From NCBI GenBank assembly GCA_024275485.1, contig JAJRZA010000087.1, positions 1-32,211 of the forward strand: a DNA stretch of 32,211 nucleotides, read 5' to 3'. Below the pieces are notes generated by a model. It saw only the letters and a program-made list of their open reading frames with translations, was not told the DNA's origin and ran no database searches. Origin of the DNA: Candidatus Krumholzibacteriota bacterium (lineage in GTDB: Bacteria; Krumholzibacteriota; Krumholzibacteriia; LZORAL124-64-63). Below, piece after piece: positions 834-1,886 of the stretch (position 1 is the first letter of the stretch; the number at the start of each line of letters is the position of its first letter). A program made the position numbers and the translations under genes.

Positions 834-1886
834 TTAGTTTGCAGGGTCTCGATTGGCGATCCTGAGGGCTTCTTCCACTTGATGCAGCCGCCGGTGGCAC
901 CGGCGGCAAAGGGTTACAATGTTTGCCAAATCGGTTTTGCCCCCCTGAGCTATGGGGATTCTATGGTGCATTTGCAGATTCAGAGTGTTTGGACAGCCTT
1001 CGGCTTGGCAGCGGTATTGATCGCGCTTTAGAACCATTCGCCGCAAACGAGGAGGGATTACACGCTTGCGGCGGGCTTCTGAATCTTCGATCAGGGCGTC
1101 GCAGCGGGCTGATTCAAGAAGCGCCTGCGGCGCTTGGAAGGTACCCCGATTGTTGGCCAAAGTGCCCCGCCCACAGTCGGGGCACTCCTGCAACACAATC
1201 AAATACCCAGGCCCATGTCTTCCCTCATTGTTCTTGGCTTCATTTCTGTTTTCACCATACGCCTCCAAGGCCTCCATCAAGAGTTCTTCCTTGGATCTAT
1301 TCTGAGCCGCCAGAATAGCCGCCCAGATAGAATATTGCTCTGGGGTTAGTTTGTAGCTTATGTAACAAGGTTCGTCCTCTGGACGAACCTCAGTCCTTTT
1401 AGCCATCGGCTTCGCCGATGGCGGTGGGTATGGGGGAGCCTTCGGCTCCGCCGAAGGCCTCTTCAACTCAACCGTACTTAACGATCTCGCTGTTTCAATG
1501 AGCTCGGCTTCGCTTAGCTCATCTGCCTGCCCAACAATTATCTCTGCCTTGCGCCAACTCAACGACCCCTCTTCGAGGGCTCGTTTCATTTGGGGCAGAT
1601 CTCCCAGTTTGGCGCCAATTTTCAAGAATGCCTTGCATTGAGATTCATTCAGGCCTCCGGCCTTACTTGCGTAGTGGCGGATGTTTTGGTAGCCCATAAG
1701 TCGATAGACTTTGAGGTCGTAGATCAACCGAAGGTAGTAAATTGTGCGAACCAAGTCCCGGCGAAGATTCGCTATGGAGTTGCGGAAATTGTTGTCCAAA
1801 GCCTTCGCCTGGGGCGAAGGCTGGGGTGTCGATTCTGATTGACAAACAGGGGCAAGGTGTCCGGGCGAGTTGGCATTTTTCGACAT
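834..1886 (-). CDS. HNH endonuclease-domain protein, 350 aa
   Basis: The C-terminal 50-60 residues carry a clear HNH nuclease module: a first CxxxxC pair, then HHRIPI with the His-His pair, an Asn-bearing LANIV segment, and CRRCH, a second zinc-binding pair (about residues 285-335). The N-terminal half is helical and charged, like the DUF222-style region that precedes HNH domains in many multicopy bacterial proteins. A Pro/Ala/Lys-rich linker (about 142-165) joins the two, and an ECPDCG motif near residue 235 may bind a second zinc. Such proteins are usually treated as homing or defence-associated nucleases; the target is unknown. The ATG at 1886 is preceded by AAAGG lying in the small hairpin 1888-1900. 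The gene is unusual for carrying several perfect palindromes in its reading frame, listed separately. It is a likely mobile or accessory gene. Confidence 0.85.
   Translation of the reverse strand: MSKNANSPGHLAPVCQSESTPQPSPQAKALDNNFRNSIANLRRDLVRTIYYLRLIYDLKVYRLMGYQNIRHYASKAGGLNESQCKAFLKIGAKLGDLPQMKRALEEGSLSWRKAEIIVGQADELSEAELIETARSLSTVELKRPSAEPKAPPYPPPSAKPMAKRTEVRPEDEPCYISYKLTPEQYSIWAAILAAQNRSKEELLMEALEAYGENRNEAKNNEGRHGPGYLIVLQECPDCGRGTLANNRGTFQAPQALLESARCDALIEDSEARRKRVIPPRLRRMVLKRDQYRCQAEGCPNTLNLQMHHRIPIAQGGKTDLANIVTLCRRCHRRLHQVEEALRIANRDPAN
887..907. repeat. Perfect palindrome in HNH zinc motif
   Basis: GCCGCCGGT (887-895), loop GGC, ACCGGCGGC (899-907). It encodes the CRRCHRR zinc-binding stretch, so part of its symmetry may simply follow from repeated Cys and Arg codons. 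Its codon phase differs from that of the five palindromes at 1119-1822. Confidence 0.7.
1119..1135. repeat. In-frame palindrome 1 of the HNH gene
   Basis: AAGCGCC (1119-1125), loop TGC, GGCGCTT (1129-1135), 7-bp perfect arms. In the coding frame it reads A-P-Q-A-L. The central loop base (1127) is a first codon position. Confidence 0.8.
1368..1390. repeat. In-frame palindrome 2 of the HNH gene
   Basis: AGGTTCGTCC (1368-1377), loop TCT, GGACGAACCT (1381-1390), 10-bp perfect arms. The coding strand reads E-V-R-P-E-D-E-P. The central loop base (1379) is a first codon position. Confidence 0.9.
1402..1422. repeat. In-frame palindrome 3 of the HNH gene
   Basis: GCCATCGGC (1402-1410), loop TTC, GCCGATGGC (1414-1422), 9-bp perfect arms. 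The coding strand reads P-S-A-K-P-M-A in the linker. The central loop base (1412) is a first codon position. Confidence 0.9.
1438..1458. repeat. In-frame palindrome 4 of the HNH gene
   Basis: GCCTTCGGC (1438-1446), loop TCC, GCCGAAGGC (1450-1458), 9-bp perfect arms. The coding strand reads P-S-A-E-P-K-A. Only 15 bases separate it from palindrome 3. The central loop base (1448) is a first codon position. Confidence 0.9.
1498..1522. repeat. Degenerate palindrome in the HNH gene
   Basis: ATGAGCTCGGC (1498-1508), loop TTC, GCTTAGCTCAT (1512-1522). Nine of 11 positions pair. The spacing and loop size match the perfect copies, but the codon phase is different, so it may be an eroded relative or a coincidence. 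Confidence 0.5.
1562..1584. repeat. Degenerate palindrome in the HNH gene
   Basis: ACGACCCCTC (1562-1571), loop TTC, GAGGGCTCGT (1575-1584). Nine of 10 positions pair. Same architecture as the perfect copies, different codon phase. Confidence 0.5.
1800..1822. repeat. In-frame palindrome 5 of the HNH gene
   Basis: AGCCTTCGCC (1800-1809), loop TGG, GGCGAAGGCT (1813-1822), 10-bp perfect arms. The coding strand reads P-S-P-Q-A-K-A near residue 25, close to the peptides of palindromes 3 and 4. The central loop base (1811) is a first codon position. Confidence 0.9.

Follow-up and report, generated by a model that had tools for sequence, protein, structure and literature searches.

The window, i.e. 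the whole stretch of DNA analysed here, comprises 32,211 nucleotides of contig JAJRZA010000087.1 from a Candidatus Krumholzibacteriota bacterium. An HNH nuclease gene lies near its start on the minus strand (834–1886), with a reading frame that is open throughout and encodes 350 amino acids. From its N-terminus, the product consists of a tail, a DUF222-like helical domain, a disordered linker, a zinc knuckle, and an HNH domain. The HNH domain scores 43.4 bits against Pfam PF01844 (cut-off 21.4) and belongs to that family. The score against DUF222 (PF02720) is 19.9 bits, below the gathering cut-off of 24.4, and the product may at most be a distant relative of DUF222. In a protein alignment of the product with 13 homologues, H307, H308, N322, H331, and H335 are invariant in all 14 sequences, and the HH-N-H residues are intact. 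The AlphaFold2 model based on this alignment has a mean pLDDT of 79.7, with low confidence for the first 20 residues, for residues 143–181 approximately (above all around 148–163), and around residues 212–228. The open reading frame (ORF) beside the HNH gene, at 208–600, has no Pfam match.

A bacterial small SRP RNA (Rfam RF00169; 1987–2084, minus strand) lies directly upstream of the HNH gene. In the sister genomes G001, G003, and G005, dnaX comes immediately after the SRP RNA and no HNH gene intervenes. The HNH gene thus represents a lineage-specific insertion. In the window, it is found on the stretch that separates the contig end from the SRP RNA. With regard to a homing endonuclease, which would be inserted at a cognate empty site that it cuts, the observations cover one junction: the three sister genomes do not have the gene at this place, and the other junction lies past the contig end. 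The gene belongs to a mobile family of DUF222-like HNH nuclease genes that is present in multiple copies and in which the coding sequences themselves contain perfect palindromes. The contig itself opens with a 141-bp repeat (1–141) that contains two palindromes (10–28 and 105–123). Further copies in the window's genome, G000, are at G000:C21:1-141 (100% identity) and G000:C41:7662-7793 (95%); of the three copies, two are at contig ends.

At least eight perfect stem-loops, with arms of 7–10 bp and loops of 3–8 bases, are present in the coding sequence of the HNH gene. All are described on the minus strand and are numbered from the N-terminal end of the protein. Palindrome 1 (1800–1822; arm 10, loop 3, phase 1) encodes QPSPQAKA, residues 22–29, and covers the end of the N-terminal tail and the beginning of the first helix in the AlphaFold2 model. 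Three palindromes, all in phase 1 with a loop of 3, fall in the disordered linker: palindrome 2 (1438–1458; arm 9; RPSAEPKA) at its start, palindrome 3 (1402–1422; arm 9, sense loop GAA; PPSAKPMA) within it, and palindrome 4 (1368–1390; arm 10; EVRPEDEP) at its end. Palindrome 5 (1297–1318; arm 8, loop 6, phase 2) encodes AILAAQNR at a helix end. Palindrome 6 (1161–1186; arm 9, loop 8, phase 1) lies on the zinc knuckle ECPDCGRGT, palindrome 7 (1119–1135; arm 7, loop 3, phase 1) on a conserved AP-x-AL segment that forms a loop, and palindrome 8 (887–907; arm 9, loop 3, phase 3) on the conserved HNH segment CRRCHRRLH, in the last HNH helix of the model. Both arms of palindromes 6, 7, and 8 encode conserved residues; the linker palindromes encode variable ones. 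The half-site GCCWTCGSC with a 3-bp spacing is common to three of the eight palindromes.

The initial annotation had reported five of these, namely palindromes 7, 4, 3, 2, and 1, with arms of 7, 10, 9, 9, and 10 bp and 3-base loops throughout. All five are present as described, but the count was too low, with palindromes 5, 6, and 8 missing from the list. It had rightly placed a first codon position at the centre of all five, and had recognized the likeness of the peptides encoded by palindromes 1, 2, and 3. Its two degenerate copies, at 1498–1522 (9 of 11 stem pairs) and 1562–1584 (9 of 10), both on the minus strand with a GAA loop, are genuine imperfect stems of the same shape, but differ in phase, with codon position 2 at the centre.

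The abundance of stems in the gene was assessed by synonymous shuffling that preserves the protein and the codon usage, with stems defined by an arm of at least 8 and a loop of 0 or 3–6. Six such stems are observed vs 0.135 expected, and none of 2000 shuffles reaches six. For stems with a loop of 3 and an arm of at least 9, the figures are five vs 0.052 (0 of 3000 shuffles). When 130 control ORFs from the window's genome are shuffled in the same way, 14 stems are observed vs 17.8 expected, i.e. no excess. A scan of 1.22 Mb of the 3.98 Mb genome (about 27–30%; 947 ORFs, 1.09 Mb coding, runs of N excluded) finds one stem in 112 ORFs, two in 10, three to five in none, and six only in the HNH gene, so that no other ORF of the sample with the same shape in its coding sequence exceeds two. 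Among the 53 stems of the sample with an arm of at least 9, the HNH gene holds the sole cluster of more than two within 1 kb. At a mean of about 0.14 stems per ORF, six would occur about once in 10^8 ORFs, an order-of-magnitude figure that assumes that ORFs are alike. The shuffles, the ORF sample, and the clustering all agree with the earlier judgement that the palindromes are far beyond chance; that observation is confirmed, and is stronger than originally stated.

Codon usage, GC content, and a repetitive P/A/K linker could in principle make palindromes by chance, and the linker is indeed rich in these residues, which are encoded by GC-rich codons. This explanation is refuted because the synonymous shuffles retain those very features and still give 0.135 stems against the six seen. 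Moreover, homologues with a similar linker have few palindromes or none. Its probability is practically negligible, and amino-acid constraint alone does not explain the palindromes, which the protein sequence does not dictate. A genome-wide habit of forming hairpins was considered as well and is rejected for the window's genome and for G014, the genome of one of the closest orthologues, in which a sample has 32 stems vs 24.9 expected. In the genome of the other, G019, there is a mild general excess of stems (58 vs 27.6).

The initial annotation had suggested that the palindromes may be short elements inserted in frame, as in Rickettsia palindromic elements, or that the gene may be under selection for structured mRNA or DNA; the second of these may hold, whereas the first is not supported. 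Two observations are in favour of insertion, be it of Rickettsia-like elements or of intragenic REPs: three of the palindromes resemble each other, and elsewhere in the family, in other genera, copies of the in-gene palindrome are dispersed through the genome. However, the linker, with its three palindromes, has 31 residues and is the shortest among the 12 homologues in which this segment is complete (33–53 residues in the others). The conserved residues encoded at palindromes 6, 7, and 8 align gap-free with the homologues, which have the same residues in non-palindromic codons and no insertion, the very outcome that the initial annotation had named as refuting its insertion reading. Exact matches to GCCWTCGSC-N3-GSCGAWGGC number three in the 3.98 Mb genome, all of them within the HNH gene, and matches with one mismatch outside the gene are scattered. 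CTTCGGC-N3-GCCGAAG is unique in the genome, and the palindrome sequence varies by site. Therefore, from linker length, gap-free alignment, and the lack of genomic copies, it is concluded that the palindromes were not inserted as elements, and insertion of mobile palindromes is very improbable. With no exact copies outside the gene, derivation of its palindromes from a dispersed repeat is likewise rejected. The palindromes formed in place, where the protein tolerates them, and mostly in the least-constraining codon phase.

Six of the eight palindromes are in phase 1, against 37 of 142 (26%) background coding hairpins of the genome. The five reported initially pair first codon positions with first, and second with third. 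According to Mikhailov and colleagues, phase 1 places the weakest constraint on the protein, and in nematomorph mitochondria the longest palindromes within coding sequence occur in phases 1 and 2 only, with phase 3 avoided (PMC6649704). Since it is the least constraining, phase 1 is the expected phase for palindromes that arise in place under protein selection. The shared phase is thus better explained by least protein constraint than by insertion.

The closest orthologues, from two other genera, are also rich in palindromes. The G014 orthologue is partial (237 codons, 52% identity) and ranks first of 129 ORFs in the sample of its genome, with three stems vs 0.25 expected. One of its palindromes is unrelated to palindrome 4 but adjoins the same PCY motif. 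The G019 orthologue (55–63% identity), present as fragments on two contigs, is palindrome-enriched. One of its palindromes has the same centre codon as palindrome 2. Each of the two stems has Watson-Crick pairing at the same nine positions, and at four of these the bases on both sides differ between the genes. These pairs were read from a gap-free codon alignment, the MAFFT DNA alignment having a six-base gap. As read from this alignment, palindrome 2 evidently stays palindromic through double changes in an orthologue. The shared centre could be a coincidence, at an estimated 1–5%, if palindromes can occur only within short linkers. Palindrome 6 also has the same centre as the zinc-knuckle palindrome of the G019 orthologue. 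That relatives are palindromic with different sequences suggests that it is the hairpins themselves, and not their letters, that are kept or regenerated. More distant members of the subfamily (L036, L009, L011, and others) mostly have no stem excess in the shuffle test. The palindromes are a DNA- or RNA-level feature specific to the HNH gene and its closest orthologues.

Both orthologues are interrupted by contig ends in or close to the linker (the end of C119 and the start of C4 in G014; the start of C157 and the end of C110 in G019), and these splits may be an assembly effect of the palindromes. Elsewhere, L188, an HNH gene on JAJRWA010000100.1 that is 30% identical, has three perfect stems with arms of 9–11 and loops of 3–4 bases, one of them on its zinc knuckle. 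It is possibly another independent case.

Perfect arms and double changes can also come about without function. Template switching perfects near-palindromes and copies changes from arm to arm, and both features are its products (PMC8794818). In a weakly constrained mobile gene, the resulting palindromes would persist mainly in the linker and in the mildest codon phase. The palindromes of the HNH gene have the perfect arms and double changes that template switching makes, six of eight are in phase 1, and most of those reported initially are in the flexible tail and linker of the AlphaFold2 model; the same argument has been published for the nematomorph coding palindromes (PMC6649704). Such conversion is a general process, yet no other sampled ORF has more than two stems and the control ORFs have no excess of them. 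It also leaves unexplained the half-site common to three palindromes and the presence of palindromes in conserved HNH residues. Neutral conversion is somewhat unlikely, but it is a live rival.

The palindromes could instead act in the mRNA, as stem-loops that pause the ribosome at domain boundaries, or that keep a costly nuclease message from being translated too much or from lasting too long. Single palindromes form RNA stems of −18 to −20 kcal/mol with z near −5 (for palindrome 1, −20.2 kcal/mol and z −5.1). They are located at the tail, where the inter-domain linker begins and ends, and at the zinc knuckle, and four stems are extended by sense-strand G-U pairs, none by the antisense equivalent. 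These G-U counts are too small in the HNH gene to decide between RNA and DNA. The stems are perfectly Watson-Crick, though RNA would allow internal G-U, and the form most common in the wider family is a dyad with zero loop and inner pairs free of G-U, which RNA does not need. A role in the mRNA is rather unlikely, but it too is a live rival.

This wider family consists of many more-distant DUF222-HNH paralogues in Candidatus Krumholzibacteriia genomes. Within the 40 codons preceding the zinc knuckle, the longest zero-loop dyad has an arm of at least 7 in 34 of 94 distinct family genes, vs about five expected from synonymous shuffles. The arms of these linker dyads reach 15 bp (palindromes of up to 30 bp); they are almost always in phase 3 and encode xPRGx, STRVD, or similar peptides. 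At 35 dyad sites, 237 of the 245 cells for the inner seven pairs are Watson-Crick, a percentage that is inflated by choosing the sites for their dyads; each position has two to four pair types, and G-U does not occur. Both the range of pair types and the missing G-U are informative despite this selection. The lack of G-U in the inner pairs points to double-stranded DNA and not to RNA. It is noted that in several genes (L002, L003, L022, L032, L044, L046, L052, L072, L075, L076, L105, L109, and others) a dyad has a fixed site before QIHVHxC, and its sequence differs between genes.

In some genera, palindromes of the family are also dispersed through the genome. There are 70 to 159 copies of ACTTGCGCCGGCGCAAGT in each of G024, G031, G036, and G015, and 56 copies of TACCCGCCGGCGGGTA in G005. 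Both are absent from the remaining genomes searched, except for four copies of TACCCGCCGGCGGGTA in G014. Some copies are within HNH genes, and others lie between or at the termini of other ORFs. Inside HNH genes, the dispersed palindromes are found even in conserved coding sequence, in the LAPAQV and STRRRVL segments. A search of G005, G014, G019, G024, and G029 gave no Y1 transposase; as these are draft genomes, its absence is uncertain. The window's genome has one Y1_Tnp gene of the IS200/RAYT type on a different contig (G000:C65:352-711).

Taken together, we infer, at a probability of roughly 0.38, that the palindromes are sites, carried by the gene itself, for the nuclease family that it encodes. 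In the proposed mechanism, the palindromes would be putative sites that act in cis on the DNA of the gene, in the form of dyads or extruded hairpins. The encoded nuclease family would recognize these palindromes in its own gene, and recognition would serve self-limitation, self-repression, or copying of the gene. A half-site GCCWTCGSC spaced by 3 bp fits a binder with two-fold symmetry. Since only three of the eight palindromes have this half-site, one sequence-specific binder cannot read all eight. Several lines of evidence favour recognition of the gene's own sites. Within the subfamily, these are the gene-specific excess of stems, the exclusiveness of the pattern to the gene, the enrichment in G014 and G019, and the compensated pairs of palindrome 2. 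Across the family, they are the linker dyads of the 94-gene set with their G-U-free inner pairs, the genome-specific dispersed palindromes without Y1, and the absence of the gene from the locus in sister genomes. Against it stand the lack of dispersal of the palindromes in their own genome and the lack of enrichment in distant subfamily members.

A broader form of this reading is that DUF222-like HNH genes of Candidatus Krumholzibacteriia drive a palindrome system of their own. They would recognize sites in themselves, spread or maintain palindromes elsewhere in some genera, and drift in specificity along with the palindrome, all without Y1, and the gene in the window would be a member whose sites have multiplied inside it. 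This broader form is rather unlikely.

Perfect palindromes in protein genes represent a rare compromise, in which the protein code is combined with DNA or RNA structure. The best-described case that was found is in animal mitochondria; here the compromise occurs in a bacterial gene family, repeatedly and in a gene-specific manner. With positions that are kept while sequences change, the family offers a natural comparison of structural selection with template-switch conversion. It also indicates that, in genomes lacking the usual REP transposase, a widespread HNH family is linked with palindromic repeats, a link that has gone unstudied. The open-access literature, with most subscription journals outside this scope, yielded no account of palindromes within DUF222-HNH genes, and the negative is weak evidence of novelty.

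Four known systems are comparable to the HNH gene and its palindromes. The mitochondrial genes of nematomorphs contain perfect inverted repeats that originate in place, have arms that are kept identical, prefer the least-constraining phases, and are gained and lost as the sequence changes (PMC6649704). The HNH gene likewise has perfect, translated inverted repeats that the protein does not force, and an excess of phase 1. In contrast, the nematomorph arms extend to 142 bp and occur in many mitochondrial genes, whereas the arms here are of 7–10 bp and occur in one bacterial gene family.

Rickettsia palindromic elements and intragenic REPs are also palindromes in frame within bacterial genes, REPs inside genes having been reported (PMC3733652), and in sister HNH lineages the in-gene palindrome is dispersed as well. 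The palindromes of the window share the in-frame reading of Rickettsia palindromic elements, but they do not lengthen the protein, were not inserted, have no dispersed copies in the genome, and are unrelated in sequence between sites.

The REP13E12 repeats of mycobacteria (13E12) are multi-copy DUF222-HNH genes that act as repeated elements; REP13E12/HNH endonuclease/DUF222 is named in the DIVE paper among the repetitive elements near insertion sequences (PMC10589994). The HNH gene here differs in being below the DUF222 cut-off.

In REP/RAYT systems (REPtrons), as in the HNH family, a gene of nuclease type is tied to palindromes that are dispersed by dozens in some genomes. The nuclease is HNH here instead of a Y1 tyrosine transposase. 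Moreover, dispersed extragenic palindromes together with a Y1 transposase define REP/RAYT, and the palindromes of the HNH gene are not dispersed, those of the window being confined to one gene. The palindromes of the HNH gene are closest in form to the nematomorph coding palindromes, and the setting of the wider family is closest to the REP systems.
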